Source: Halolamina litorea (lineage in GTDB: Archaea > Halobacteriota > Halobacteria > Halobacteriales > Haloferacaceae). Taken from it: a DNA stretch of 64,000 nt. This document shows positions 29,526-57,724 of this stretch, in pieces. Below the pieces are notes generated by a model. It was not told the DNA's origin. It did no database searches and worked only from the letters and a program-made list of their open reading frames with translations. The stretch's first letter is position 1. Each line of letters begins with the position of its first letter. The position numbers were made by a program, and so were the translations under genes. Location of the stretch: assembly GCF_026616205.1 (NCBI RefSeq), contig NZ_JANHGR010000002.1:248001-312000 (forward strand), given 5' to 3'.

Positions 29526-29984
29526 ATGCGATCGAACTACGTGCCCTCCCGCGCGGTGCTCGCCGGCGGCGCCGCGACGGTCCTCTGGATCGGCACCGTA
29601 CTGGCCGTCCACACCGCCGGCTCGGCGTCGATCGTCGAGGCGCTCAACAACGTCGAGGACGTTTCGGGCTGGCTCATGGTCGGGGGCGTCCCCGGCGGCT
29701 TCGTGACCGGCGCCGTCGCCGACGACTACGCGCCGCTGCTGAAGGAGGGCTTCATGGCCTCCGTCGGCGGCGCGGCGGCGCTGGTGACGGCCATCGGTTG
29801 CTACGGGATCGCGCTCTCGATCTCGCGGGGCTACGGCGCTGACTCGCTGCTCTCCTTTATGTTCACGGGGCCGACGACGTTCACGTTCTTCCTCCTGACG
29901 CCGCTGTTGGCGATGGAAGGCGTGCTCGGGGCGCTGGTGGCGGATGCGGTCCGTGGGCGACTCAGGAAGCGCGGCGTGGTGTAG
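29526..29984 (+). CDS. DUF5518 family membrane protein
   Basis: 152 residues with four predicted helices: AVLAGGAATVLWIGTVLAVHTAG, WLMVGGVPGGFVTGAVA, GFMASVGGAAALVTAIGCYGIALSI, and FTFFLLTPLLAMEGVLGALVADAV. The Gly-rich second segment (GGVPGGFVTGAVADDYAPLLKEG) is typical of DUF5518, a haloarchaeal family of unknown role. The ATG at 29526 has no clear TATA box. It is the last gene before the EVE-McrBC island: its stop is 2 bp before the end of the divergent zinc-ribbon gene. Confidence 0.75.
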   Translation: MRSNYVPSRAVLAGGAATVLWIGTVLAVHTAGSASIVEALNNVEDVSGWLMVGGVPGGFVTGAVADDYAPLLKEGFMASVGGAAALVTAIGCYGIALSISRGYGADSLLSFMFTGPTTFTFFLLTPLLAMEGVLGALVADAVRGRLRKRGVV

Positions 29985-29985
29985 T

Positions 29986-30195
29986 TCAGAAGCGACTTCC
30001 CATCGACGCTGCCCGGTCCCATACTTCGTCCCGGTTCCCGACCTCAGCAATCCTGATTCGCCCCGCTCGTCGCTCGAAGCCACAATCGGGGCATTCGTAG
30101 TAGACCGCCCAACCGTCTCCCTCGGATTTCGTTCCGAACCAGAGTCGACAGCCACAGTCCGGGCAGCCTGCCGAATCGTGTCGAACCATCTGCAT
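29986..30195 (-). CDS. Small zinc-ribbon protein
   Basis: 69 residues from ATG 30195 (MQMVRHDSAGCPDCGCRLWF); ATG 30189 or 30219 are also possible. It has two CPDCG knuckles, GCPDCGCRLWFG and YYECPDCGFERRAG, the zinc-ribbon pattern of transcription-type or RNA-polymerase-like ribbons, followed by a short basic tail. It is divergent from the McrB-like gene across about 90 bp and convergent with DUF5518. Because it lies inside the island of unusual composition, it may belong to the restriction-like module, for example as a regulator. That link is only positional. Confidence 0.7.
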   Translation of the reverse strand: MQMVRHDSAGCPDCGCRLWFGTKSEGDGWAVYYECPDCGFERRAGRIRIAEVGNRDEVWDRAASMGSRF

Positions 30196-30271
30196 GGTCG
30201 GTCTTTCCCGCGCCTTCATACCTGAGTTCCGGGCAGCCGTTCTGACGTGTGGGTTTTTCTGTCGGCCAACA

Positions 30272-30278
30272 GGAGGTG
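30272..30278 (+). promoter_or_regulatory. Shine-Dalgarno sequence before the McrB-like gene
   Basis: GGAGGTG ends 6 bp before ATG 30285. A perfect ribosome-binding site is rare in this mostly leaderless genome. It decides the start against an in-frame GTG at 30249 and suggests an untranslated leader. Confidence 0.75.
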
Positions 30279-30284
30279 TGCGTA

Positions 30285-31841
30285 ATGGGTTACGACGGGC
30301 CGGACATCTACCGGGCGCCGTTCGGGAACGACGCCGCGCTGGAGAACTTCGAGCGGACGGTTCTCGGGGGCATCGACGCCGCCGATATCGACGCGACCGT
30401 GGATCGGGAACTGACGGGGACGGTCCGACTCTGGGGGACGAAAGCGTCCGTCGAGAGTTCGTGGCGGAACGTGGACCCCGGCGACTTCCTCATCTTCTAC
30501 CGCGACGGCAAGTACGAGTACGCTGCCGAAGTTCTCGATACGGAGCGGAACGAGGGGCTCGGGCGCGAAACCTGGCCGAACCACGAGGAAGGTTCCCCGT
30601 GGGTCTGCATCATCTATCTCGACGAACCGACCGAACTCGGCGTCGATTCCGCGGAGATCCACGACCTCGCGGGCTACAACATGACCCACACGATGGGGTT
30701 CAGCCCGCTCAACGACATGGGGATCGGCGGTATTCGTGGCCGCTGGGGCTCTGTTGAGGCGTTCGCTACCGGGGACAGCCCTATCGTGGCCGACAACGAG
30801 GAACCGTCGACGGTACCGGACCTCGACGTTCGATCGACGCCCGACGTGTCCATCCCGAAGTCGGTGCTCGACGACCTCTACTTCCCGGGTGAGGAAGCAG
30901 CTGAGATCGCCGATCAGGTTAGCGCCGCGGTCAACGCCGGGAAACACGTGGTCTTCACCGGCCCACCCGGGACAGGCAAAACCGAGATCGCGCGTCGCGT
31001 CGCCGACCACCTCGTGAATACCCATCCGACGCACTACTCCGGCGCCGAGATGACGACGGCGACGGCCGACTGGTCGACGTTCGAGACCGTCGGCGGCTAC
31101 ATGCCCGAAGAGGATGGCGACGGCGACCTCTCGTTCGTCCCGGGCCAGGTGCTCAGGCGGTTCAAACGAGACGGCGTCCAGCGGAACGAACCGCTGATCG
31201 TCGACGAGATCAACCGCGCGGACATCGACAAATCGTTCGGCCAACTGTTCACCCTGCTCTCCGGTCAAGGCGTCACGCTCCCGTACACCCGCGACGGCGA
31301 GGAGATCGAGATCGTTCCCGGTACCGAGTCCGACGGCACCCACGACGCCAACGAGTACGTCATGCCGGCCTCGTGGCGGCTGTTCGCCACCATGAACAGC
31401 TACGACAAGGCATCGCTCTACGAGATGTCCTACGCGTTCATGCGTCGGTTCGCGTTCGTTCACGTCGACGCGCCGGACCTCTCGACCGGCGCGCCGGCGG
31501 ACCTCGTTCGACCCTATGCGTCGGTTTGGGGGATCGAGACCGAAGAGCGAACGCTCGCCGACGTTGGTCGTATCTGGCGGGTCATGAACACGACCGTCGA
31601 CGGCCGGAAGATCGGTCCCGCGATCGTCGAGGACATGCTCCGCCACGTCTCCTACTCAGAGCTCACGCACGAGGCCGCACTCACCCGTGCAGTCGCGGAC
31701 TACCTCTTCCCGCAGTTGGAGGGTGTCGCTCGACGGGAAGCCATCGTCTCGGAACTGCTCGGGCTCGACTGTCTCGACGAGGGCAGACTGGCACGGCTCG
31801 CAGGGGACGTGCTGCAGGTCAGGATCGCCGACGCACGATGA
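30285..31841 (+). CDS. McrB-like AAA+ ATPase with N-terminal EVE-like domain
   Basis: 518 residues. Residues about 5-150 form an EVE/PUA-like fold (TGTVRLWGTKASVESSWRNVDPGDFLIFYRDGKYEYAAEVLDT), a reader of modified bases in other restriction systems. The McrB-type AAA+ core has Walker A GPPGTGKTE (226-234), Walker B LIVDEINRADIDKSF (304-318), and ATMNSYDKASLYEMSYAFMRRF (368-389) with Arg387/388 as the sensor/Arg-finger pair. It probably forms a translocating ring that activates the nuclease encoded by the overlapping next gene. Target modification is unknown. The start is set by the Shine-Dalgarno sequence at 30272. Confidence 0.88.
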   Translation: MGYDGPDIYRAPFGNDAALENFERTVLGGIDAADIDATVDRELTGTVRLWGTKASVESSWRNVDPGDFLIFYRDGKYEYAAEVLDTERNEGLGRETWPNHEEGSPWVCIIYLDEPTELGVDSAEIHDLAGYNMTHTMGFSPLNDMGIGGIRGRWGSVEAFATGDSPIVADNEEPSTVPDLDVRSTPDVSIPKSVLDDLYFPGEEAAEIADQVSAAVNAGKHVVFTGPPGTGKTEIARRVADHLVNTHPTHYSGAEMTTATADWSTFETVGGYMPEEDGDGDLSFVPGQVLRRFKRDGVQRNEPLIVDEINRADIDKSFGQLFTLLSGQGVTLPYTRDGEEIEIVPGTESDGTHDANEYVMPASWRLFATMNSYDKASLYEMSYAFMRRFAFVHVDAPDLSTGAPADLVRPYASVWGIETEERTLADVGRIWRVMNTTVDGRKIGPAIVEDMLRHVSYSELTHEAALTRAVADYLFPQLEGVARREAIVSELLGLDCLDEGRLARLAGDVLQVRIADAR

Positions 31842-33178
31842 AGCGCGAGGCACTCATCGAAGGACTGTCGACGGAGATCCTCGCGTACGTGATGCACGGA
31901 TCGTTCCCGGAACAACAGATCGTCGGCGAACTCCGCCCTGACGGTCTCGATGGGCGGTTCGAGGACTACGAGAGCCTGATCCGCCTCCACTTCGTACTCC
32001 GACCCGACGTGGTCCGGTTCGTCGAACGGCTTCCCCAGCGACTCCGCAGCATCAAGACCGAGACCGAGAACGTCTCCCGAACGACCCGGGGGCAGGTGGA
32101 CGGACGGATCGACTGGAGCCGAACCGTCCGGGAGCGCTACGCGAGGAACCCGAACGACCGGTCGCTGTTCGTCTGTGAGAGTCGCTCGGAGGACTACGAC
32201 ACCGACGAGAACGTCGTTCTCAAGCGGCTGCTTGCGCTGATCAACGACACACTCGCCGACTGTGCGGACCTGTTCGAGCGGGAGTACGACTGGGTGACCG
32301 ACCGTTGGCAGGAGAACCTCAACCTCGTCGACGCTCTCCGGAGTATCGTCAAGCGGAACGTCCACGTCACTCGTATCCGCGAGCCGGCGGCGTACGAACC
32401 GACCGACCGGATGCTCCAGCGGACGGCCTCTTCTCGGGGCGATGTCTATCGCGAGGCAGCCCGACTGCTCGGCGAGTACCGCCGAAGTCTCGCGGCCGAC
32501 GAGGGCGCGATCGCGGACTTGCTCGAACGGACCGCCGTCACGCCCGACGACGACGAGACGCTCCTGGAACTGTACGTGCTGTTCCAGTACGTCTCGGCTA
32601 TCGAGTCCCTCGACGACGAGGCGTTTACGATCCGGACGATCGAGTCGGGGTCACAGGAAGTCGCTCGGCTCGAACGGGACGACGCCGAACTGATCCTCTA
32701 CCACGACAGCTCTGCCCGCGACCGGGGCCTCTCGTTCGTCCCTGAGGAGTTCGAGCGATCCCGTGGAGAGCTTTCCCGCGCTGGTCTCGTCCAGCGGGAG
32801 GCGCAGTCGGTCGCGGAGACCTACTTCGAGGACCGCGAACTTCGCCGTTCGACCGGCCGCCCGGACGTGATCGTGCTGGAAATCCGAGAGGGCGGTAGCC
32901 GGGAGTACCTCGTGACCGAGGTCAAGAACTCCACCAACTACGACACCGTCAGGTCGGGGATCAAGGAGACGCTGGAGTACCTCGCGTTCCTCCGGCAGAA
33001 CGACGACCTGGTGTTCGACGACGACCGTCCGTTCGGCAGCGGCTGGAACGGCGTGCTCGTGATTCAGGACCTCGACGGCGAGGAGACCGCCGATCTCGAC
33101 GATCAAGAATCGATCCGGATACTCCAAGCGTCCGAGGTCGAGGACCGGCTCACCCGAGTGTTGAAAAACGTCCTCTGA
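31838..33178 (+). CDS. McrC-type PD-(D/E)XK nuclease subunit
   Basis: 446 residues. The McrC middle region reads QVDGRIDWSRTVRERYARNP ... DTDENVVLKRLLALI (residues 86-135), the McrC/DUF2357-like signature with the E-N pair. The nuclease core is at the C-terminal end: helix with Glu244, RPDVIVLEIREGG (Asp343), and VTEVKNST (Glu361, Lys363), giving D...ExK. The ATG at 31838 overlaps the McrB-like stop by ATGA, so the two proteins are co-translated as in McrBC. An N-terminal helical module of about 80 residues precedes the signature. No methylase lies nearby, so it would be a modification-dependent (type IV) enzyme rather than type I-III. Confidence 0.86.
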   Translation: MKREALIEGLSTEILAYVMHGSFPEQQIVGELRPDGLDGRFEDYESLIRLHFVLRPDVVRFVERLPQRLRSIKTETENVSRTTRGQVDGRIDWSRTVRERYARNPNDRSLFVCESRSEDYDTDENVVLKRLLALINDTLADCADLFEREYDWVTDRWQENLNLVDALRSIVKRNVHVTRIREPAAYEPTDRMLQRTASSRGDVYREAARLLGEYRRSLAADEGAIADLLERTAVTPDDDETLLELYVLFQYVSAIESLDDEAFTIRTIESGSQEVARLERDDAELILYHDSSARDRGLSFVPEEFERSRGELSRAGLVQREAQSVAETYFEDRELRRSTGRPDVIVLEIREGGSREYLVTEVKNSTNYDTVRSGIKETLEYLAFLRQNDDLVFDDDRPFGSGWNGVLVIQDLDGEETADLDDQESIRILQASEVEDRLTRVLKNVL

Positions 33179-33193: not shown

Positions 33194-35707
33194 CTAATCC
33201 GCCTTCGCCTGCCAGTCCCGCACCGAGCCCGCACTCACTCCGTCCACGTTCTCCGCGAGGTCGTCGGGGTCGGCCTCCTTCAGCCCCTCGACGTCCTCGA
33301 CGCCGGCCGCCGACAGCTTCTCGGCGGTCTTCTCGCCGATCCCCTCGACGGTCTCCAGTTCGGAGCCGGCCTCCCGGGCCTGGAACTCCCGGTAGTTGCA
33401 GATCGGACAGCCCAGATCCCACGGCTCGTCGTCGTCGCCGTGGACTTCGAGGTGCGGGAGGTCGTGTTCCTCACAGATCTCGTCGGTGACCTCGATCTCG
33501 CCGCGGCGGGGCAGCGGGAGCGAGTAGTCACAGTCGGGGTAGCGCGTACAGCCCACGAGCCGCGAGCCCGAGCGTAGTTGCTTGATCGCCAGTTCGCCGC
33601 CCTCTTCCTCGCCGCACTCGGGACAGGCGCCGATGACCCGGTCCTCCTCCTCGTCGGCTTCCTCGGCCTTACAGAGCGGGCAGCCGTGGACGAACGTCTT
33701 GCGCCCGGCGAGCATCTTCACCTCGTTCAGGCCGTGGTCCTCACACACCTCGTCGAGGATCAGCGGCTTGCCCGTCGAGGGCAGCGGCAGCGTGTACTCA
33801 CAGTCGGGATAGCCGTCACAGCCGACGAAGTAGCTGCCGTAGCGGGATTTCCGCACCAGCAGGTCCTCGCCACATTCCGGACAGGGGCCGATGATCTTGT
33901 CGGCCTTCATCGACTTCCGCAGGTGGTCGCCCACGTCCTCGCGGGATTCTCGGAGTTCCTCGAAGACGACTTCGAGCATCTCGCGGGACTCCTCGGTCAC
34001 CTCGTCGAACCCCTTCTCGCCGGCGGCGATGGCGCGCATGTCGGCCTCCAACTGCGCGGTCATCTCCTCGCTGACGATGCGGTCGGCGAACTCCTCGGCG
34101 GCCTCGACGACCGCACGGGCCAGTTGGGTCGGTCGGGGGGGGTCGCCCTCGACGTAGTTCCGGTCGTAGAGCTTTTCGATGGTGTTGTGCCGGGTGGACT
34201 TCGTCCCGACGCCCATCTCCTCCATCGTCTCGATCAGGCGCGACTGGCCGTAGCGACGGGGCGGCTGGGTCTGCTTGGCGTCGAGGTGGACGTTGCTGAC
34301 CGCCAGTTCCTCGCCGGTCTCCACGTCGGGAACCACGGTCTCGTCGGCCGAGGAGTAGGGGTAGACCGAGTGGTACCCCTCCTCCAGCAGGCGCTTGCCG
34401 TTGGCCTTCAGCGAGAGGCCACGCTCGCCGCCCGAGGGGAGGTCGACCTCCCCATCAACACCCGCCACCACGCGCAGGTGTTCCCACGTCGCCGCGGGCG
34501 CACAGGTGGCGAAGAAGCGCCGAACGACCAGTTCGTACACCTCCCACTCGTCGTCGTCGAGGTCGGTCGGCATCTCGCCGGTCGGGTGGATCGGCGGGTG
34601 GTCGGTGGTCTCCTCGTCGCCCTCGGTCGGGGTGATCTCGTCCTGTTCGAGCAGTTCCTCGACGCTGTCGCCGAAGAACGTCTCTGAGAACGACTTCAGT
34701 AGCTCCTCGGGGTCGAGGTCGTCGGGGTAGACGGTGTTGTCCGTCCGCGGGTAGGTCATGTAGCCCGCGGTGTAGAGGTCCTCGGCGATGCTCATCGCGC
34801 GCTGAGCCGAGTAGCCGAGCGAACTCGCCGCGCGGATGAACTGCGTCGTGTTGAACGGCGCCGGTGGCTCGTCGGTCCGGGTCCGGCGGTTGACCTCCTC
34901 GACGGCCGCCGATTCGGCGTCGGCGAGTGCTTCGTTGGCGTTCTCCGCGGCGGCTTCCTCCCAGATGCGCCGGGCTTCGGTGCCGTCGTCGTCGAGGTAG
35001 AAGTACTGGGCCTCGAAGCCGGCGCCGGCCTCCTTCGTCAGGTCGGCGAACAGCTCCCAGTAGTCGTCGGGGTCGAACGCCTCGATCTCGCGCTCGCGGT
35101 CGACCAACAGCTTCAGCGTCGGCCCCTGCACCCGGCCGACGGAGATGAAGTCCTCGCCGAGTTGGCCCGCCGAGAGCGAGAGGAACCGCGTGAGTGCGGC
35201 GCCCCAGACGAGGTCGACGGTCTGTCGGGCCTCGCCGGCGGCGGCGAGGTCGAAGTCGAGTTCGCCGGTGTTGTTGAACGCCTCGGTCACCTCGCGCTCG
35301 GTGATCGAGGAGAAGCGCGCCCGCTCGATGGGCACCGACTCGTCCACGCCGCGGACGATGTCGAACGCCTCCTTCCCGATCAGTTCGCCCTCGCGGTCGT
35401 AGTCCGTGGCGATGACCACGCGGTCGGCGTCGCGGGAGAGGCGGCGGAGCGCGGCGACGATGGCCTCCTGAGTCGGTTCGGTGTCGATCGGGGCGCGGAT
35501 CAGTTCGTGGGGCTCGACGTCCCGCCAGTCGTCGTACTCCGGCGGGAAGTCGACGCCGACGACGTGGCCCGAGAGGCCGATCACCCGCTTGCCCCCCCAG
35601 CCGTAGACGTTGACGCCGTTGACCCGGTCGGCGTCGGCGGTCCCGTCGCTGAGGATGTCGGCGATACGACGGGCCGCATTGTCCTTCTCGGTGACGATGA
35701 GTTCCAT
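33194..35707 (-). CDS. topA: DNA topoisomerase I (type IA)
   Basis: 837 residues. Toprim domain at the N-terminus (MELIVTEKDNAARRIADIL; acidic triad in VVIATDYDREGELIGKEAFD near residue 110), then the type IA body with the active-site Tyr in GYMTYPRTDNTVYP near residue 315. The C-terminal 200 residues hold four Cys clusters (CPECGEDLLVRKS ... CDGYPDC, CEDHG ... CPLC, CPECGEEEG ... CTRYPDC, CEEHDL ... CPIC) and end in a helix-hairpin-helix (ETVEGIGEKTAEKLSAAGVEDVEGLKEADP). It relaxes negative supercoils. The zinc-HhH tail is usual for haloarchaeal enzymes. A CCTAAACG box lies about 30 bp upstream of the start. Confidence 0.95.
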   Translation of the reverse strand: MELIVTEKDNAARRIADILSDGTADADRVNGVNVYGWGGKRVIGLSGHVVGVDFPPEYDDWRDVEPHELIRAPIDTEPTQEAIVAALRRLSRDADRVVIATDYDREGELIGKEAFDIVRGVDESVPIERARFSSITEREVTEAFNNTGELDFDLAAAGEARQTVDLVWGAALTRFLSLSAGQLGEDFISVGRVQGPTLKLLVDREREIEAFDPDDYWELFADLTKEAGAGFEAQYFYLDDDGTEARRIWEEAAAENANEALADAESAAVEEVNRRTRTDEPPAPFNTTQFIRAASSLGYSAQRAMSIAEDLYTAGYMTYPRTDNTVYPDDLDPEELLKSFSETFFGDSVEELLEQDEITPTEGDEETTDHPPIHPTGEMPTDLDDDEWEVYELVVRRFFATCAPAATWEHLRVVAGVDGEVDLPSGGERGLSLKANGKRLLEEGYHSVYPYSSADETVVPDVETGEELAVSNVHLDAKQTQPPRRYGQSRLIETMEEMGVGTKSTRHNTIEKLYDRNYVEGDPPRPTQLARAVVEAAEEFADRIVSEEMTAQLEADMRAIAAGEKGFDEVTEESREMLEVVFEELRESREDVGDHLRKSMKADKIIGPCPECGEDLLVRKSRYGSYFVGCDGYPDCEYTLPLPSTGKPLILDEVCEDHGLNEVKMLAGRKTFVHGCPLCKAEEADEEEDRVIGACPECGEEEGGELAIKQLRSGSRLVGCTRYPDCDYSLPLPRRGEIEVTDEICEEHDLPHLEVHGDDDEPWDLGCPICNYREFQAREAGSELETVEGIGEKTAEKLSAAGVEDVEGLKEADPDDLAENVDGVSAGSVRDWQAKAD

Positions 35708-49754: not shown

Positions 49755-49811
49755 ATGCCACTCGATCCCGTCAGTTCGGTGTGCCGTCCGTCGGTGGGGT
49801 GGTCGCCGTGA
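49755..49811 (+). CDS. Possible 18-residue leader peptide before mnhE
   Basis: ATG 49755 opens an 18-codon frame (MPLDPVSSVCRPSVGWSP) that stops at TGA 49809-49811, sharing bases with GTG 49808, the likely start of mnhE. The ATG follows the CTTTAAA box at about the distance expected for the first translated codon. A coupled leader could tune the operon. It may equally be chance: the peptide resembles no known attenuator. Confidence 0.3.
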   Translation: MPLDPVSSVCRPSVGWSP

Positions 49812-50887
49812 CCGGTTCGGGGCTGCTCGTGCCGGTCGCGGAGTCGGCCAGCCTCCGGGACACCGTCACGTACGCGGTGGAACAGGCGCTCGAGGGCGCC
49901 GACGAGGGCGGATCGCCGGCGTCGATCCACTTCGTCTACCCGCTCCCCGAGCGCGTCTCGTTCGGCGACCGCACCCGGCGGACCGACGACGCCAGAGCGC
50001 TGCTCGAGCGTGTCGGTTCGTGGGCCGATGCGGACGCCGGTGACGAGGAACTCGTGGTGGAGACCGCGCTGCTCGCCACCCACGAGTACCTCTCGACGCC
50101 CGACGACTACGCCGACGCGCTCGTCCGCTACGCCCAGCGCGAGGGCCTCACCCGTGCGGTGTTCGATCCGGGGTACGACCCCATCGGCTCGACGCCGCTG
50201 CTCCCGTCGCTCGAAGCGGAGGTCCGCCGTGCCGGCCTCGACGTCGACGAGGCGCCGGTCACGGCCGAACAGCAGGAGGCACAACTGGTCCGGCGCGGGA
50301 CGCTCACCCAGTTCTTCGCGCTCTTCGGCACGTCCTACCTGTTCTACCTGCTGCTGGCGGGTTCGCTCAAACCGTTCGAACTCGCGACCGGCGCGATCAC
50401 CGCCGGCATCGTCGCCGTCTCGCTGTGGCGCGTCTCGCTGACCTCGCCGGTCGACCCGAGTCGCTCGATCGGCCGCATCGCGCGGTTCGCGCTGTACGTC
50501 CCGTTCCTGCTCTGGGAAGTCATCAAGGCGAACTTCGAGATCGCCTACATCGTGCTCCACCCGGACCTCCCGATCGACCCGGAGGTCGTCGAACTCGACG
50601 CCGCCGTCTGGTCGGCGCTCCCGGTGACGACGCTCGCAAACAGCATCACGCTCACGCCGGGGACGCTCACCGTCGACGTGGAGCGGAGCCACCTCGTGGT
50701 CCACAGCCTCACCGGCGGCGCCCGCGAGGAACTGTTCGCCGGCACGCTCGAACGCGCGGTCCGGTTCGTCTTCTACGGCCGCGCCGCCGCCCGCATCCCG
50801 AGCCCGCTGGAGCGCCGGCAGGCCGAGGAACAGGCCGCGGAGGCCGCCGAGGAAGCCGCAGACACCGATACGGAGGAGACCGAATGA
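49808..50887 (+). CDS. mnhE: Mrp-type Na+/H+ antiporter subunit E with N-terminal USP-like domain
   Basis: 359 residues from GTG 49808; GTG 49781 would add nine. Residues 1-170 resemble a universal-stress-like nucleotide fold (LLVPVAESASLRDTVTYAVEQALEGADE, IHFVYPLPERV, GLTRAVFDPGYDPIGSTPLLPSLEAE). The MrpE part follows from about 175: LTQFFALFGTSYLFYLLLAGSL, IGRIARFALYVPFLLWEVIKANFEIAYIVLHPDLPIDPEVVEL and TTLANSITLTPGTLTVDVERSHLVVHSL. The USP fusion is a haloarchaeal variation on bacterial MrpE. It is the first gene of the Mrp operon and overlaps mnhF by ATGA. Confidence 0.88.
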   Translation: MTGSGLLVPVAESASLRDTVTYAVEQALEGADEGGSPASIHFVYPLPERVSFGDRTRRTDDARALLERVGSWADADAGDEELVVETALLATHEYLSTPDDYADALVRYAQREGLTRAVFDPGYDPIGSTPLLPSLEAEVRRAGLDVDEAPVTAEQQEAQLVRRGTLTQFFALFGTSYLFYLLLAGSLKPFELATGAITAGIVAVSLWRVSLTSPVDPSRSIGRIARFALYVPFLLWEVIKANFEIAYIVLHPDLPIDPEVVELDAAVWSALPVTTLANSITLTPGTLTVDVERSHLVVHSLTGGAREELFAGTLERAVRFVFYGRAAARIPSPLERRQAEEQAAEAAEEAADTDTEETE

Positions 50888-51156
50888 TCGAACAGATACT
50901 ACTGGGCGCCGCGACGGCGTTCGTGCTCGTCTCGCTGGTCGGCGTCTACCGGACCGTCACCGGGCCGACGATGCCCGACCGCGTCATCGCCATCAACTTC
51001 ATCGGCTCGAACGTCGTGATCGTGATCGCGCTGATCGCCGCCGCCATCGGCGAGCCGGGCGCCCTCGACATCGCGCTGGTGTACGCCCTGCTGAACTTCC
51101 TGCTCAGCATCTCGATCTCGAAGTTCCAGGTCGACAGCGAGGAGGGGGTCCTATGA
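50884..51156 (+). CDS. mnhF: Mrp-type antiporter subunit F
   Basis: 90 residues with three helices: QILLGAATAFVLVSLVGVYRTVTGPTMPDRVIAINFIGSNVVIVIALIAAAIGEPGALDIALVYALLNFLLSISISKF. The R-T-V-x-G-P-T-x-x-D-R-V block is the MrpF hallmark. A short charged tail ends the protein. It lies in the tightly coupled operon between E and G with ATGA overlaps at both ends. Its partners are needed for a working complex, which exchanges Na+ for H+ across the cell membrane. Confidence 0.9.
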   Translation: MIEQILLGAATAFVLVSLVGVYRTVTGPTMPDRVIAINFIGSNVVIVIALIAAAIGEPGALDIALVYALLNFLLSISISKFQVDSEEGVL

Positions 51157-51464
51157 CGCCACGCGAGATCCTCGTGTTGGTGCTCGCCGTCGGCGGCGTC
51201 TTCTTCGCCGTCGTCGCCGCGGTCGGGCTGATCCGGCTGCCGGACGTGTACTCGCGAGCCCACAGCTCCTCGAAGAGCGAGACGCTGGGCGCCGTCCTGG
51301 CGCTGAGCGCCGTCGCCGTCAGCTACGGGATCGGCCTCGAGGCGCTCAAAGTCGTCTTCCTGCTGACGTTCATGTTCCTGACCAACCCCACTGCCGCCCA
51401 CGCGATCACCCGGGCGGCCCGCGAGCGGGGCATCGAGCCGTGGACCACGGAGGACGACCGATGA
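51153..51464 (+). CDS. mnhG: Mrp-type antiporter subunit G
   Basis: 103 residues with three helices. The MrpG signature is FFAVVAAVGLIRLPDVYSRAHSSSKSETLGAVLALSAVAVSYG, where G-L-I-R-L-P-D-x-Y-x-R-x-H is diagnostic, then KVVFLLTFMFLTNPTAAHAITRAARERG. It overlaps both neighbours by ATGA. It is part of the membrane arm rather than the ion-translocating core. Confidence 0.92.
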   Translation: MTPREILVLVLAVGGVFFAVVAAVGLIRLPDVYSRAHSSSKSETLGAVLALSAVAVSYGIGLEALKVVFLLTFMFLTNPTAAHAITRAARERGIEPWTTEDDR

Positions 51465-51997
51465 CGGTCGCGCTCGAAATCGCGCTGTTGGCGCTGGTCG
51501 TCAGCGCCGCCGTCGCCACCGCCGTGCTGCGAAGCGTGTTGAGTTCCGTCGTCGCCTTCGGTGCCTACAGCCTCGGTATCGCGATCATCTGGGTGTTCCT
51601 CCGTGCTCCCGACGTGGGGCTCACCGAGGCCGCCGTCGGTGCCGGCATCATGACCGTCCTGTTCCTGCTCACTATCGTGAAAACCGACCTCCCGACCGTC
51701 GAACGGACCTTCGAACGGATCGACCTCCGGGCCGCCGGAGTCGCACTCGCGCTCGTGCTCGCGCTGTCGACAACCCTGTTCGCCCTCCCCGCGGTGGGCG
51801 ACGCGGGCTCGGCGGTCGCGAGCGACGACGTGACGAACTACTACCTCGACAACGCCTACGAGGAGACCGAGGTCAAAAACGCCGTGACCGCCGTGCTCGC
51901 GGCCTACCGTGGCTTCGACACGATGGGTGAGGCCGTCGTGGTCTACTCGGCGGGCGTGGGACTGCTCGTCGTCCTCAACCGGGAGGTGTTCGGATGA
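51461..51997 (+). CDS. DUF4040-type Mrp subunit (MbhD/MrpA C-terminal-like)
   Basis: 178 residues with about five helices. The segment SSVVAFGAYSLGIAIIWVFLRAPDVGLTEAAVGAGIMTVLFLLTI is the DUF4040/MrpA-C hallmark (A-P-D-V-x-l-T-E-A-x-v-G). In bacterial Mrp this domain is fused to the end of MrpA; here it is a free gene, as in archaeal-type clusters. A second part has YYLDNAYEETEVKNAVTAVLAAYRGFDTMGEAVVVYSAGVGLLVVL, which resembles the following MrpA/MrpB junction domain (DUF4040 plus MbhE-like). It overlaps mnhG and mnhB by ATGA. Confidence 0.87.
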   Translation: MTVALEIALLALVVSAAVATAVLRSVLSSVVAFGAYSLGIAIIWVFLRAPDVGLTEAAVGAGIMTVLFLLTIVKTDLPTVERTFERIDLRAAGVALALVLALSTTLFALPAVGDAGSAVASDDVTNYYLDNAYEETEVKNAVTAVLAAYRGFDTMGEAVVVYSAGVGLLVVLNREVFG

Positions 51998-52464
51998 GCG
52001 ACGCGCCGGAGTCGACCGGCCGCCAGTCGACCTACGTCGGGAGCCCCATCATCATGGCCACCGTCCGGGTGGTGATGCCGTTCGTGTTCACGTTCGGCCT
52101 GTTCGTGATGTTCCACGGGGCCGACTCCTCCGGGGGCGGCTTCCAGGGCGGCGTCATCGTCGGCACCGTCGTGTTGATGCTCGGCATCGCGTTCGGCATC
52201 GACCCGACCCGCGAGTGGATCGGGCCGCGACTGCCGGTCGTACTGGTCGGCGTCGGTGTGCTCGCGTTCCTCTTTACGGGGTTCGGGAGCGTGCTGCTCG
52301 GCGCCGGCTTCCTCGAGTACTCGGTCTACCACGACCTCGGCATCCCCCACGCGACGAAGTACGGGATCGAGTTCGTGGAACTGGCCATCGGCGTCATCGT
52401 GGCCGGCATCGTCACCGGCCTGTTTTTCACCATCGCCGCGGGAGTCGGGGGTGACACCGAATGA
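51994..52464 (+). CDS. mnhB: Mrp-type antiporter subunit B
   Basis: 156 residues with four helices. The MrpB hallmark is IIMATVRVVMPFVFTFGLFVMFHGADSSGGGFQGGVIVGTVVLMLGIAFG (P-x-x-x-x-x-x-x-x-x-x-H-G-x-x-x-x-G-G-G-F-Q-G-G). The later helices contain FLEYSVYHDLGIPHATKYGIEFVELAIGVIVAGIVTGLFF, also typical. It overlaps the DUF4040 gene and mnhC by ATGA. The HG-x4-GGGFQGG loop is thought to be essential in the complex. Confidence 0.92.
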   Translation: MSDAPESTGRQSTYVGSPIIMATVRVVMPFVFTFGLFVMFHGADSSGGGFQGGVIVGTVVLMLGIAFGIDPTREWIGPRLPVVLVGVGVLAFLFTGFGSVLLGAGFLEYSVYHDLGIPHATKYGIEFVELAIGVIVAGIVTGLFFTIAAGVGGDTE

Positions 52465-52814
52465 TCGACCTGCTCGCGTCCCGGAGCTACTTCCTCGTCG
52501 CGTTCCTGCTGTCGGGGATCGGGACGTACATGCTGATCGGCAACGGGAACCTGATCAAGAAGGTGATCGGGATGAACGTGTTCCAGACGGGGATCTTCCT
52601 CTTTTTCATCGCCTCGGCGTTCGTCAAGGGAGGGAGCCCCCCGTTGCTGACCGCACCCGAACCCTACGTCAGCCCGCTGCCACACGTGCTGATCCTGACG
52701 GCCATCGTCGTCGGGGTCAGCCTCACCGCGGTGGCGCTGGGGCTGATCGTCCGCATCTACGACGTGTACGGCTCGCTGGACGCCGCAGAGATCGAGGTGG
52801 TCGCCGATGAGTGA
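52461..52814 (+). CDS. mnhC: Mrp-type antiporter subunit C (NuoK-like)
   Basis: 117 residues with three helices, homologous to complex I NuoK. LVAFLLSGIGTYMLIGNGNLIKKVIGMNVFQTGIFLFFI is the MrpC helix 1-2 with the N-L-I-K-x-v-I-G-x-n block, then LLTAPEPYVSPLPHVLILTAIVVGVSLTAVALGLIVRIYDVYG (P-x-P-x-x-L-x-L-T-A-I-V-v). It overlaps mnhB by ATGA and the first D-type subunit by 8 bp. Function as part of the proton path is inferred from NuoK. Confidence 0.93.
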   Translation: MIDLLASRSYFLVAFLLSGIGTYMLIGNGNLIKKVIGMNVFQTGIFLFFIASAFVKGGSPPLLTAPEPYVSPLPHVLILTAIVVGVSLTAVALGLIVRIYDVYGSLDAAEIEVVADE

Positions 52815-54261
52815 CCTCCCCGCCATGCTGGTGGCGTTCCCGATGCTGTTCTCGGTGCTCGTCCTGCTGGCCGGGCTGGTCCGGCAGGACAGCGGCTGGC
52901 CGGTCGCGGCCGTCGGCGCCGCTGTCCAAGTCGTCGCGGCCGCCGTTCTCGCCAACCGCGCCTTCGAGGAGACCGTCACCTACGTCGTCGGCGGCTTCTC
53001 GGCACCGTTCGGCATCGAACTGGTCGTCGACGGCCTCTCGGCGACGATGGCCGTCCTCGTCGCCGTCGTCGCCCTCGCGGTGCTCGCGTACTCCCGTGTC
53101 GCTGGCCCGCGCTCGAACGCGTTCTACGCCGTCTACCTCCTGCTCGTCGGTGGGCTGACGGGCATGAGCATCACGGGGGACATCTTCAACATGTACGTGT
53201 TCCTCGAGATCACGGGGCTTGCGGCCTACGCGCTGGTCGCAAGCGGCGAGGGCGGCCGCTCGGCGCTGGCCGCGCTCAAGTACCTGATCGTGGGCACCAT
53301 CGGCGCCAGCCTGTTCCTGCTCGGGATCGGCTACGCCTACGTCGCCACGGGGACCCTGAACATGGCCGACCTCTCGGCGCAGTTGCTCGAAGTCGGCTAC
53401 GGCGACCCGCTCGTGCAGGCCTCCTTCGCCCTGCTGGTGATCGGCCTGTTCGTCAAGGTCGCCGTCTTCCCGCTGCACGCGTGGCAGCCGGACGCCTACG
53501 CCGGCGCGCCCGACTCCGTGAGCGCGTTCATCTCGGCGCTGGTGTCGACGGTCGCCGCCTACGCGCTGATCCGGATCGTGTTCACGGTGTTCACGATCGA
53601 CTTCCTGCAGGCCAACCCCGAGGCACGCTCGCTGCTCGCTGCCGGCGCGGTGGTGAGCATCGTCTTCGGGAGCGTCCTCGCGGTCTCCCAGACGGAGATC
53701 AAACGGATGCTCGCGTACTCCTCGGTGTCCCAGTTCGGCCTCGTCGTCGGCGCCGTCGCCGTCGCGAACGAGACGGCGCTGCTCGGCGCGACGATCCACC
53801 TCGTCGGCCACGCCGTGATGAAGGGGGGACTCTTCCTCGCTGCGGGGCTGATCGCGACCGCCACGGGCGCCCGGACCGTCGACGACTACGCGGGGCTCGT
53901 CCAGCGGCTCCCCCTCGGGGCGGGTGCGTTCGGCGCGCTCGTGCTGGGGATGGTCGGCGTCCCGCCGGCGGTCGGCTTCGTCGGCAAGTGGTACGTCGCC
54001 CTCGGCGCCGTCGAGGCCGAGTCGTGGCCGCTCGCGGTCGTGATCCTCGCGAGCACGCTGCTGACGCTCGCGTACTTCGCGCGCATCCTCGAACGGATGT
54101 TCTTCCGTGAGCCCGCGAGCACCGACGCCGGGTCGGCGCAGGTCTCGCTCGGCATGAAGGCCACCGTCGTCGTCGCCGCGCTCGCGGCGGTCGTCCTCGG
54201 GATGCTCGCCTTCGAGTACGGACAGCTCCTCGAACCAACCGTCGCCGAACTACTCGCATAA
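52807..54261 (+). CDS. mnhD: Mrp-type antiporter subunit D, first copy
   Basis: 484 residues, 14 helices of the NuoL/M/N proton antiporter family. The key helix has MYVFLEITGLAAYALVASGEGGRSALAALKYLIVGTIGASLFLLGIGYAY with Glu near residue 136 and Lys near 158. Later, FVKVAVFPLHAWQPDAYAGAPDSVSAFISALVSTVAAYALIRI (P-x-x-x-W-l-P-D-A-x-x-x-A-P) is diagnostic, as is TEIKRMLAYSSVSQFGLVVGAVAV. It is one of three tandem D-type subunits. The following gene starts on the stop (TAATG). Confidence 0.92.
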   Translation: MSDLPAMLVAFPMLFSVLVLLAGLVRQDSGWPVAAVGAAVQVVAAAVLANRAFEETVTYVVGGFSAPFGIELVVDGLSATMAVLVAVVALAVLAYSRVAGPRSNAFYAVYLLLVGGLTGMSITGDIFNMYVFLEITGLAAYALVASGEGGRSALAALKYLIVGTIGASLFLLGIGYAYVATGTLNMADLSAQLLEVGYGDPLVQASFALLVIGLFVKVAVFPLHAWQPDAYAGAPDSVSAFISALVSTVAAYALIRIVFTVFTIDFLQANPEARSLLAAGAVVSIVFGSVLAVSQTEIKRMLAYSSVSQFGLVVGAVAVANETALLGATIHLVGHAVMKGGLFLAAGLIATATGARTVDDYAGLVQRLPLGAGAFGALVLGMVGVPPAVGFVGKWYVALGAVEAESWPLAVVILASTLLTLAYFARILERMFFREPASTDAGSAQVSLGMKATVVVAALAAVVLGMLAFEYGQLLEPTVAELLA

Positions 54262-55964
54262 TGGAATCACTCAGACCTCTCGCGGCAGTGCTCGTCACGG
54301 CAGCCGCCATCATCCCGATCCTCGCGTCGCGCGGGCGGCCGAACCTCCGGGAGGGATGGACGCTGCTCGCAGCAGTCACGAACCTCGTCATCGTCGCCAG
54401 CATGGTGCCGGGCGTCCTGAACGGGACGACCTACGAGACGACGATCGGGACGTTCGTCCCCGGCGTGGAGTTCAGCCTGCAGGCCGACGCCCTCGGCGTG
54501 CTGTTCGGCCTGCTCGCCAGCCTGCTCTGGCTGGTCACGAGCTTCTACAGCATCGGGTACATGCGCGGCCTCGACGAGCACGACCAGACCCGCTACTTCG
54601 CGGCGTTCGCGGCCAGCGTCGCCTCGGCGGTCGGGATCGCCTTCGCGGCGAACCTGTTGATGCTGTTCGTGTTCTACGAACTGCTCACCGTCGCCACCTA
54701 TCCGCTGGTCAGTCACGACGAGACCGACGAGGCCCGCGCGGCCGGTCGGAAGTACCTCACCTACACCTTCGGGGGCGGCGTCGCCGTCCTCGCGGGGTCG
54801 GTGATGGTCTACTGGCTGACCGGCACCACCGCGTTCACGCCCGGTGGCATCGCCGCCCTCGCCGGCGCCGATCCGCTGTACGCCCGCGTCGCGTTCGGCC
54901 TGCTGATCACCGGCTTCGGCGTCAAGGCGGCGCTGATGCCGCTGCACTCCTGGCTGCCCGACGCGATGGTTGCGCCGACGCCCGTCTCCGGCCTGCTCCA
55001 CGCGGTCGCGGTCGTGAAGTCCGGCATCTTCGGGATCGCTCGCGTCATCCTCGACACCTACGGGCCCGAGACCGTCGCTCAGATCGGTATGGGCATCCCG
55101 CTGGCGGCGCTCGCCGCGTTCACGCTGGTGACCGCGAGCGTCATCGCGCTCCGGCAGGACAACCTCAAGCGCCGGCTCGCGTTCTCGACGGTGAGCCAGC
55201 TCTCCTACATCGTGCTCGGCCTGGCCGTCGGCGCCGCCGCGGCGCCCGGGGCGGCCGCCCGCTACGCGCTGATCGGCGGGCTGTTGCACATCCCCGCCCA
55301 CGCGTTCATGAAGCTCACCCTGTTCTTCTGTGCGGGGGCGATCCACGTCGAGACCCACACCGACGACATCAGCGACATGGCCGGCATCGGCAAGCGGATG
55401 CCGCTGACGATGACCGCCTTCGGCGTCGCCGCGCTGGGGATGGCCGGCATCCCGGTCATCGCCGGCTTCGTCAGCAAGTACTTCCTGCTGATCGGCACCG
55501 TCTCGGCGGGATACCTCGCCTTCACGGGCGCGCTGTTGCTCTCGGGCATCCTCAACATCGCGTACTTCTGGCCGGTCGTCTACGCCGCCTTCTTCGAGTC
55601 GAAGGAGGGGACCGACGCCAAGCCGCTGATCGAGAACCCGATCGGCGGCCGCCTCTTCGGCGACGACGCCGAGGAACTGGCGACCGACGGCGGGCACGTC
55701 GACGATGACGATACCGACGACGCTGACGACCACGACGAACACGGTTACGCCGACGACCACGAGGGCGACCACGGCGACCACCACGGCCACGGCGGCGACT
55801 GGGACGTCCGCGGCTGGGCCGGGCAGGAGTCGACGTGGTTCATGCTCGGGCCCATCCTCTTTGCGGCCTCGGGCTCGATCCTCCTCGGCGTCGTTCCCGA
55901 CGCCGCGGTGTTCCTCAGGATCGTCCGTGAGGTCGTCTTCGCGGTCACGGGGGTGCGGGTCTGA
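54261..55964 (+). CDS. Mrp-type antiporter subunit D, second copy, with His/Asp-rich loop
   Basis: 567 residues of the same proton-translocating family. Diagnostic parts: LLMLFVFYELLTVATYPLVSHDETDEARAAGRKYLTYTFGGG, GFGVKAALMPLHSWLPDAMVAPTPVSGLLHAVAVVKSGIFGI (H-S-W-L-P-D-A-x-x-A-P) and QDNLKRRLAFSTVSQLSYIVLG. Between the last two helices an insert near residues 475-510 is almost only Asp, His, Glu and Gly (DDADDHDEHGYADDHEGDHG and on), a potential metal-binding loop outside the core fold. It shares stop/start bases with both D-type neighbours. Confidence 0.9.
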   Translation: MESLRPLAAVLVTAAAIIPILASRGRPNLREGWTLLAAVTNLVIVASMVPGVLNGTTYETTIGTFVPGVEFSLQADALGVLFGLLASLLWLVTSFYSIGYMRGLDEHDQTRYFAAFAASVASAVGIAFAANLLMLFVFYELLTVATYPLVSHDETDEARAAGRKYLTYTFGGGVAVLAGSVMVYWLTGTTAFTPGGIAALAGADPLYARVAFGLLITGFGVKAALMPLHSWLPDAMVAPTPVSGLLHAVAVVKSGIFGIARVILDTYGPETVAQIGMGIPLAALAAFTLVTASVIALRQDNLKRRLAFSTVSQLSYIVLGLAVGAAAAPGAAARYALIGGLLHIPAHAFMKLTLFFCAGAIHVETHTDDISDMAGIGKRMPLTMTAFGVAALGMAGIPVIAGFVSKYFLLIGTVSAGYLAFTGALLLSGILNIAYFWPVVYAAFFESKEGTDAKPLIENPIGGRLFGDDAEELATDGGHVDDDDTDDADDHDEHGYADDHEGDHGDHHGHGGDWDVRGWAGQESTWFMLGPILFAASGSILLGVVPDAAVFLRIVREVVFAVTGVRV

Positions 55965-57724
55965 TGGAGCCCATCGTCCCGCCCTTTGTCCCGGTGATCG
56001 TCGCCGCGCTCCTGCTGCCGTTCCTCGGCCGGAAGGCCGGCCACGCGTTCGCGGGCCTCGCCACCTTCGCGGTGGTCCCGTACGTCTGGCTCGTGGACTC
56101 AGGTGCCCACTTCACGGAGTTCGACCTGTTCGGCTTCGAGACGGTGATCTTCAACGTGGACCCGTTCTCGACGCTGATGGGGCTGATCTTCGCGTTCATC
56201 GGCGCCGCGGGGGTGCTCTACTCCTACTACAGCGACGCAGAGGCGATCCAGACGGCGTTCGCGCTCTCCTACGTCGCGAGCAGTCTCGGCGCCGTCTTCG
56301 GCGGTGACTGGCTCACGCTGATCTTCTTCTGGGAGCTGATGGCCGTCACCAGCACGCTGTTGGTCTGGCACTACGGCGGCAAGGCGGTGCGGGCCGGCTT
56401 CCGCTACGCCATCCTGCACGGCATCGGCGGCACGCTGCTGCTCGGTGCGGTGATCTGGCACTACGCGGAAGTGGGCTCGTTCCTCTTCAGCGACGCCAGC
56501 GGCCTCGCCGGTCCCGTCGCGCCGGTGCTCGGCGCCATCGGCGTCGGCGTCAACGTCGGCTTCATCGGCCTCCACGCGTGGCTGCCCGACACCTACCCGC
56601 GACCGCACATCGCGGCCAGCGTCTTCCTCTGTGTCTACACGACCAAGACCGGCGTCTACGGGATGTACCGCGTCTTCCCCGACGACGGCAACATCGCCGT
56701 CGCCTACATGGGCGGCCTGATGGCCGTCTTCGGGGCAACGATGGCGCTGTTCCAGAACGACATGCGCCGCCTGCTCTCCTACCACATCCAGTCGCAGGTG
56801 GGCTACATGGTCGCCGGCGTCGGCATCGGCGGCGCACTGGCACAGGCCGGCGCGTTCGCCCACGTGTTCAACCACATCCTCTACAAGGGGCTGCTGTTCA
56901 TGGCCGCCGGCGTGGTGATCTACCGCACCGGCGAGTCGAGCCTGAAGAAGCTCGGCGGGCTCGCAAAGGAGATGCCGATCACCGCGGGGACGTTCACCGT
57001 GGCGGCGCTGTCGATCGCCGGCTTCCCCGGCTTCAACGGCTTCGTGAGCAAGGGAATCGTGATCTCGGCGAGCCACTACGACTTCGTGAAGGGCCCCCTC
57101 GTCATCGGGGACTTCTACACGCTCGAACTGCTGCTCCTGATCGGCGGCGTCGGGACGTTCATGTCGTTCATCAAGTTCGGCTACTACGCCTTCTTCCACG
57201 GCGAGTACGACGGCGAGGTGAAGGACGCCAACCGCGGCCAGTCGGTCGCGATGATCTCGGTCGCGGCGCTCTGTGTGTTCTACGGGATCTCCGACGGCTC
57301 GCTGTTCAGCCTGCTTCCCTACGACGTGACCGACGAGGCCGTCGTCTCCCACGTCTACCACACCTACACCGTCCCTCACTTGATCGAGGGGGTCGCCCTC
57401 GCCGTACTGGGGCTGATCGGCTTCCGTCTCGTCAAAAAGCCCCTCTCCGGGCTCGGGAAGGTGCCCGACGTGGACAAGCTCTACAACCCGGCGACGTTCT
57501 ACGGCACGCGCTATCTGGTCGTGGGCGTCACCGAACTCTACGCCCGCGTCGACGACGCCGCGGTCGCGCTGGCCAAGCGCTCGGTCAGCACCGCAAAGAA
57601 CCCCGAAGCCGCCCTCGCCGCGGCGACGGGTCGGGAGTCGATCCGGACCAAGGCTGGCATCGAGCGCAGCCTCATGCTCGTCCTGCTGGCGCTGGTCGCG
57701 GCGGTCGCGCTGCTGCTCTCGTAG
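55964..57724 (+). CDS. Mrp-type antiporter subunit D, third copy
   Basis: 586 residues, NuoL/MrpA-D-like, longest of the three. It has WLTLIFFWELMAVTSTLLVWHYGGKAVRAGFRYAILHGIGGTLLLGAV with the E and K/R charge pair, VNVGFIGLHAWLPDTYPRPHIAASVFLCVYTTKTGVYGM (H-A-W-L-P-D-x-x-P-x-P), and QNDMRRLLSYHIQSQVGYMVAGVGIG. The C-terminal 110 residues (from KPLSGLGKVPDVDKLYNPATFYG) contain a lateral helix and a final membrane segment. It is the last gene of the operon; the SDR gene downstream is convergent. Confidence 0.9.
   Translation: MEPIVPPFVPVIVAALLLPFLGRKAGHAFAGLATFAVVPYVWLVDSGAHFTEFDLFGFETVIFNVDPFSTLMGLIFAFIGAAGVLYSYYSDAEAIQTAFALSYVASSLGAVFGGDWLTLIFFWELMAVTSTLLVWHYGGKAVRAGFRYAILHGIGGTLLLGAVIWHYAEVGSFLFSDASGLAGPVAPVLGAIGVGVNVGFIGLHAWLPDTYPRPHIAASVFLCVYTTKTGVYGMYRVFPDDGNIAVAYMGGLMAVFGATMALFQNDMRRLLSYHIQSQVGYMVAGVGIGGALAQAGAFAHVFNHILYKGLLFMAAGVVIYRTGESSLKKLGGLAKEMPITAGTFTVAALSIAGFPGFNGFVSKGIVISASHYDFVKGPLVIGDFYTLELLLLIGGVGTFMSFIKFGYYAFFHGEYDGEVKDANRGQSVAMISVAALCVFYGISDGSLFSLLPYDVTDEAVVSHVYHTYTVPHLIEGVALAVLGLIGFRLVKKPLSGLGKVPDVDKLYNPATFYGTRYLVVGVTELYARVDDAAVALAKRSVSTAKNPEAALAAATGRESIRTKAGIERSLMLVLLALVAAVALLLS

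Follow-up and report, generated by a model that had tools for sequence, protein, structure and literature searches.

A YTH-like sensor and a zinc-ribbon companion in a mobile island of the predicted McrBC restriction type from haloarchaea

Introduction

Several McrBC-type systems have been described that share a motor and a nuclease and differ in the domain by which modified nucleic acid is sensed. In the E. coli McrBC system, the McrB GTPase and the PD-(D/E)xK nuclease McrC work with a DUF3578 sensor, a reader of modified cytosine. Among Type IV architectures, an McrB that bears an EVE-superfamily sensor and is paired with McrC is a common one (PMC11090510, PMC7641849); the EVE-McrB systems of Bell et al. 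2020 (PMC7641849) combine a PUA-superfamily sensor with McrC in both archaea and bacteria. The McrBC system of Thermococcus gammatolerans (YTH-McrB; 6p0f/6ut5) has the same two-protein layout, and its McrB N-domain is given as a YTH-like reader of N6-methyladenine (m6A) in secondary descriptions (PMC7641849, PMC7897488 and PMC11037411). YTH-like and EVE domains are stated to be difficult to distinguish (PMC7641849). PDB entry 6p0g is titled as a complex with m5C DNA, and the m6A assignment of the T. gammatolerans domain therefore rests on those secondary statements.

In haloarchaea, Type IV restriction has been reported for the Mrr protein of Haloferax volcanii, which acts on Gm6ATC DNA (PMC6471742, PMC7230728) and which, unlike the locus considered here, is a single nuclease with an unrelated sensor and without an AAA+ motor. 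The term McrBC is absent from the two archaeal RM surveys consulted. Small zinc proteins of the CPxCG type are known to be encoded beside the genes they control, as exemplified by Brz of Halobacterium, a zinc-finger protein that regulates an adjacent gene (PMC2253796).

Here we analyze a locus in a 64-kb stretch of haloarchaeal DNA (hereafter the window), for which the original prediction, made from the sequence alone, had proposed an EVE-McrB/McrC pair with a divergent zinc-ribbon gene. We consider it probable that the three genes constitute a Type IV McrBC island whose sensor reads m6A, which has a zinc-ribbon protein (ZnR) as companion, moves as a unit and often replaces a Type IIG gene. 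Since McrB proteins with EVE-superfamily sensors are common partners of McrC, the pair itself is not new; in the literature searched we found no description of a conserved zinc-ribbon partner or of Type IIG replacement, neither of which is mentioned in the available portion of the EVE-McrB account (PMC7641849).

Results

Organization of the island

The host genome (G000) comprises 3.02 Mb, and the three genes sit in it between a small membrane-protein gene and topA. The features, in window coordinates, are as follows:

29526..29984, + strand: left flank, small membrane protein, outside the system; adjoins topA in congeners with an empty site
29986..30195, - strand: ZnR, Cys4 zinc-ribbon protein of 69 aa, divergent partner gene; Cys11, Cys14 and Cys35 invariant, Cys38 nearly so; head-to-head with McrB
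30196..30284, no strand: putative divergent promoter region of 89 bp; AT-rich boxes facing either gene, and at 30272 the SD-like GGAGG
30285..31841, + strand: YTH/EVE-type McrB of 518 aa, sensor and AAA+ GTPase
30285..30779, + strand: predicted modified-base sensor at the N-terminus of McrB, residues 1-165, YTH-like PUA-superfamily fold (model, profile match to 6p0f)
30960..30983, + strand: McrB Walker A motif GPPGTGKT
31392..31406, + strand: McrB NxxD signature MNSYD, of McrB-type GTPases (motif definition from PMC11090510)
31838..33178, + strand: McrC-type protein of 446 aa, putative McrB-activating N-part and PD-(D/E)xK nuclease
32864..32926, + strand: McrC catalytic motif D343...E361-x-K363, invariant in 74 McrC homologues
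33194..35707, - strand: right flank, topA, topoisomerase I, outside the system

The originally predicted gene positions are correct: McrB begins with the ATG at 30285 and McrC with the ATG at 31838, within an ATGA overlap (31838-31841). The zinc-ribbon gene, predicted to lie divergently 90 bp upstream, is indeed head-to-head with McrB, the exact gap being 89 bp; its conserved start is 30195, not 30219. The lower GC content originally ascribed to the zinc-ribbon part is also real (61.0% in the ZnR gene) and extends to the whole island (64.3% over 29985-33178 versus 68.9% for the window), which is below every other 3.2-kb stretch sampled. The lack of a nearby methylase, likewise proposed at the outset, was not contradicted by the window genes that were analyzed. 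The left neighbour could not be confirmed as DUF5518, its protein having no Pfam match above the cut-off. The Shine-Dalgarno site GGAGG at 30272, which had been singled out, is present but not conserved in relatives, and was set aside as a noteworthy feature. The 64-kb window contains no tRNA, and the junctions of the island showed no target duplication.

The McrB motor and the McrC nuclease

The AAA+ domain of the McrB protein matches the Pfam AAA_5 model (E 3.5e-15) and combines Walker A (GPPGTGKT at residue 226), Walker B (LIVDE at 304) and the NxxD-type signature (MNSYD at 370), which together place it in the McrB family; among PDB entries it matches McrB of T. gammatolerans and McrB of E. 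coli best. Against the NCBIfam McrB model it scores under the curated cut-off (E 1.4e-12; 47 versus 637 bits) and is therefore not the E. coli equivalog. As a single sequence, the McrC-type protein has no match in Pfam, NCBIfam, PADLOC or the PDB, and its identity emerged only from an alignment of homologues together with a structure model. The best Foldseek matches of its AlphaFold model are the McrC proteins of E. coli and T. gammatolerans (E 3.7e-5, probability 1.00), the model being of middling quality (mean pLDDT 76.9) and the overall rmsd to these matches about 15 A. D343, E361 and K363, which the original prediction had placed in PD-(D/E)xK order, stand without exception in the alignment of 74 homologues, and DUF2357, the model of the McrB-activating N-part, gives weak matches in only 4 of these. 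The gene lies directly 3' of mcrB, and a McrC homologue adjoins McrB in every listed locus. PADLOC returned no McrBC match for the island. The motor, the McrC-like matches of the model and the invariant catalytic residues support the predicted McrBC-type modification-dependent restriction pair.

The zinc-ribbon partner

Despite a poor codon score, ZnR is a real gene, as is evident from the conservation of its protein, which is 72% and 67% identical in congeners and in which C11, C14, E25, W29, C35 and D56 are invariant across 28 homologues, with C38 conserved in over 90%. It has no Pfam or NCBIfam family above cut-off. In 25 of the 28 carrier genomes a ZnR homologue directly adjoins McrB on its upstream side, in divergent orientation; among the remaining three, it lies 1.5 kb upstream in one, downstream of McrC in another and is lacking in the third. 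The association is with the sensor subfamily: ZnR is present at 26/31 loci with this subfamily versus 1/37 related McrBC loci in which the N-domain is of another kind or more divergent. The ZnR-McrB intergenic region spans 77-130 bp in relatives, and in most of them AT-rich TATA-like boxes can be made out by eye near both starts. The suggestion that the zinc ribbon may regulate the pair or form a third component gains from this linkage more than could be known from the single locus. Set against it are solitary ZnR homologues, which are found in mobile regions, in cassettes of small genes next to Type I and other RM genes. We know of no zinc-ribbon partner for the T. gammatolerans McrBC.

The sensor domain

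The sensor was analyzed as residues 1-165 of McrB aligned with 29 homologues (30 sequences). Its structural model (mean pLDDT 89.8) has a YTH-like PUA fold, and the nearest solved structure is the T. gammatolerans McrB (TgMcrB) N-domain 6p0f (VIA-align Z 16.1 over 151 residues at 2.5 A; Foldseek E 4.9e-9), with the next family at Z about 11. Behind TgMcrB, the VIA-align ranking continues with the archaeal EVE-family proteins PH1033 and MJECL36 (Z about 11), after which come YTH domains of eukaryotes (about 10) and, at 9.5, the 5mC-reading EVE domain of VcaM4I. In profile searches of the PDB with the sensor family, TgMcrB (6p0f) was the sole match (E 2.8e-5). The two domains come from different archaeal lineages and are only 18% identical. 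As candidates for an aromatic pocket around the flipped base, W50, W97, W106 and Y111 are invariant across the 30 sensors, and W50 aligns with a Trp of 6p0f. The Pfam EVE model (PF01878) does not match the window protein and finds weak matches in 10 of the 30 sensor homologues (best E 0.023). Profile and fold thus bear out a PUA-superfamily sensor on McrB. The 'EVE' label holds at the superfamily level, EVE and YTH being sister domains, yet these comparisons suggest that it points to the wrong base. We also considered simple sensor swapping and rejected it: the sensors of Natrialbaceae McrB loci had seemed unrelated, and by profile search many of them are weak members of the same superfamily.

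Site occupancy and mobility

We compared seven genomes of the genus at the site between the membrane-protein gene and topA. The trio is present at this site in three; in two (G004 and G006) the site is empty, with the flanking genes 17-18 bp apart. In G001 a Type IIG restriction-methylation enzyme with NPPY and DPAMGSGH motifs stands in place of the trio, its N-terminal part being in a different frame in that assembly, and in G005 the site is taken by a DUF433/DUF5615-like pair (toxin-antitoxin). More widely, 43 of 147 relatives have an McrC homologue, and the genes flanking the ZnR side mostly differ across 24 loci, in 5 of which a DUF433-like toxin-antitoxin gene recurs beside McrC. The locus accordingly shows the patchy distribution, empty sites and defence neighbours of a defence system, in agreement with its original description as an insertion island, and the trio is not fixed in every genome at one place. 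Profile search of IMG/VR viral contigs found no relatives of the sensor and phage records contain no ZnR relatives, so that nothing points to known viruses as carriers.

Type IIG remnants behind McrC

Loci of the sensor subfamily often have, at most 600 bp behind McrC, the 3' end of a Type IIG gene (12 of 29 loci); elsewhere in the same loci, 420 kb yielded one Type IIG 3'-end match. The fragments start 5-374 bp behind McrC and are on the McrC strand wherever the strand was checked. The G002 fragment follows the stop codon of McrC by a few nucleotides and shares 93% identity with the Type IIG that G001 has at this site. Whether such remnants are more frequent here than at other McrBC loci hinges on the boundary drawn for the sensor subfamily, and lineage is a confounder; the counts are 12/52 versus 3/17 (p 0.75) with a boundary at E 1e-6 and 13/32 versus 2/37 with a boundary at the score gap. 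Read most simply, these arrangements would mean that the 5' part of a Type IIG gene gave way to the trio.

Distribution of methylases

This sensor, at >=50% identity, is found in 28 of 391 genomes of the class, which were compared with the 363 others. Matches to N6_Mtase (PF02384) are depleted in carriers (15/28 versus 301/363, p 6e-4). Within one family, where lineage matters less, the figures are 4/11 carriers versus 74/85 good-quality genomes (p 6e-4), a few of the added genomes being of uncertain carrier status. No depletion in carriers is seen for C5-cytosine methylases (PF00145; 11/28 versus 177/363, p 0.43), and strong HsdM-type matches taken alone show no significant depletion (5/28 versus 110/363, p 0.20). 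In the host genome there are both an intact C5-cytosine methylase (L266 5413-6738) and a DPPY-type methylase resembling COG1743, while the carrier G002 has Type IIG, D12 and N6_N4 candidate methylases. Strict exclusion of m6A methylases by the island was therefore discarded, and with candidate N6/N4 methylases in both genomes, any recognition of m6A must depend on sequence context.

Discussion

As the modified base, m6A is favoured over 5mC, because the sensor is nearest to the TgMcrB domain, the host keeps a 5mC methylase, and N6-methylase but not C5-methylase matches are depleted in carriers, the genomic part of this evidence being correlational. The first two of these observations also tell against the original proposal that the domain reads modified cytosine. 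A version of that proposal, in which the same McrBC behaves like an EVE-domain system and reads 5mC, 5hmC or 4mC, draws on the PUA-superfamily membership of the sensor, the weak Pfam EVE matches among its homologues, the placing of the EVE-fold proteins PH1033 and MJECL36 next after TgMcrB, and the standing of EVE-McrB as the commonest EVE defence architecture, found in nearly 300 genera (PMC7641849); we hold it to be unlikely in view of the lower score of the VcaM4I EVE domain than of the TgMcrB domain, and of C5-methylases that are intact in the host and undepleted in carriers. We think it more improbable still that the target is a hypermodified viral base (e.g. 7-deazaguanine) or modified RNA instead of a methylated DNA base. 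Eukaryotic YTH folds do read RNA, and McrBC of the CoCoNuT type is predicted to act on it (PMC11090510), but the closest domain of solved structure reads DNA, and no CoCoNuT features were seen in the island, which has NxxD rather than NxD in its McrB and a plain two-gene operon.

The roles of ZnR and of the Type IIG fragments each admit a second reading as well. As small CPxCG zinc proteins regulate adjacent haloarchaeal genes, local regulation is the simplest role for ZnR, and by this analogy it would most likely regulate transcription from the divergent promoter that the two sides share; ZnR differs from the Brz-like proteins in its linkage to a restriction system and in lying outside the Pfam and NCBIfam families above cut-off. 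The tie to one sensor subfamily, and a very weak Pfam match to the restriction alleviation protein Lar (E 0.096), could instead indicate a structural subunit or self-protection factor of the McrBC complex, which is the less probable view, though worth serious attention, given that ZnR is divergent and not co-operonic, that a short shared promoter is typical of local regulators and that Brz provides a precedent for control of an adjacent gene. With regard to the fragments, Type IIG enzymes with the motif seen in G001 are adenine methylases. Since such an enzyme makes m6A, a system attacking m6A would need to replace it rather than coexist with it. The competing view, that the fragments merely reflect shared defence hot spots or a cassette-borne fragment and no conflict over methylation, is to us only a little short of an even chance: other defence-type genes, such as the DUF433-like toxin-antitoxin genes, also recur beside McrC, and two related loci outside the subfamily likewise hold a Type IIG fragment, whereas the common strand and close spacing of the fragments, and the 93% identity of the one in G002 to the Type IIG of its congener, are points in favour of replacement.

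Under the preferred reading, that of an m6A-directed island, the YTH-like N-domain of McrB would flip out and bind the modified base, most likely N6-methyladenine, while the AAA+ domains would assemble into a ring that moves along DNA, driven by GTP. McrC would plug into this ring, stimulate McrB and cut through its PD-(D/E)xK site, and ZnR would act on the promoter between the divergent genes. The island would move as a unit, settle in defence hot spots and often supplant a Type IIG gene whose m6A product would be incompatible with it. We extend this tentatively, as a possibility rather than an expectation, to a haloarchaeal subfamily of m6A-dependent McrBC with a dedicated ZnR regulator, a subfamily that would spread by taking over the chromosomal sites of Type IIG genes whose products make m6A, such that lineages flip between marking with m6A and attacking it.

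Were these proposals correct, they would name m6A as the base for a widespread and uncharacterized haloarchaeal restriction system, add a conserved third gene to it, and offer a natural test of incompatibility between defences that mark DNA and those that attack the mark. The haloviruses HF1, HF2 and phiCh1 carry N6-methyltransferases (PMC7230728), so that m6A-marked targets exist, and these viruses would be natural targets if the island has an antiviral role. By the same token, dam-methylated E. coli plasmids may be restricted in carriers, which would be relevant to genetics in these archaea.

Neighbours of McrBC and homologues of its zinc-ribbon partner

A toxin-antitoxin-type pair of DUF433-like and DUF5615-like genes is a recurrent neighbour of McrBC of the island type, with the DUF433-like gene lying beside McrBC in 5 of the 24 loci of relatives whose flanking genes were compared. 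In the congener G005, this pair occupies the same topA site as the island in the window. The topA genes of G005 and of a second congener, G003, additionally carry an in-frame insert of ~535 aa near residue 505 (1372 versus 837 aa in the window topA, 33194-35707, which is without it), and this topoisomerase I insert is probably an intein.

L117 8509-9104, L116 9336-9910 and L158 6262-6833: DUF433-like and DUF5615-like pairs
L112 1981-6099: topA, 1372 aa (G003)
L158 1414-5532: topA, 1372 aa (G005)
Window 49799-57724: ordinary cluster of genes for an Mrp/Mnh-type sodium-proton antiporter, with matches to MnhE, MbhD/E and Proton_antipo_M

Homologues of the zinc ribbon without McrBC occur within a repeated cassette of small genes (L225-L235), comprising a SWIM-type zinc protein, a winged helix protein and short unknowns; these cassettes lie in mobile regions, adjoining Type I RM and NucS-like genes.

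Methylases and methylase-like proteins of the host

L269 (G000:C1:1498500-1504500): COG1743-like DPPY methylase
L266 5413-6738 (G000:C1): intact C5-cytosine methylase
L267 630-3392 (G000:C1): Eco57I-like protein, 920 aa

The COG1743-like methylase adjoins a PLD/helicase-type protein, an arrangement resembling the archaeal methylase-DUF499-helicase system of Bell et al. 2020 (PMC7641849). The C5-cytosine methylase, together with a neighbouring gene of unknown function, is flanked by integrase-like genes. With VTDAP at the expected place of the catalytic motif NPPY, the Eco57I-like protein is possibly a methylase-like protein without catalytic activity; it has a counterpart in G002, another congener.
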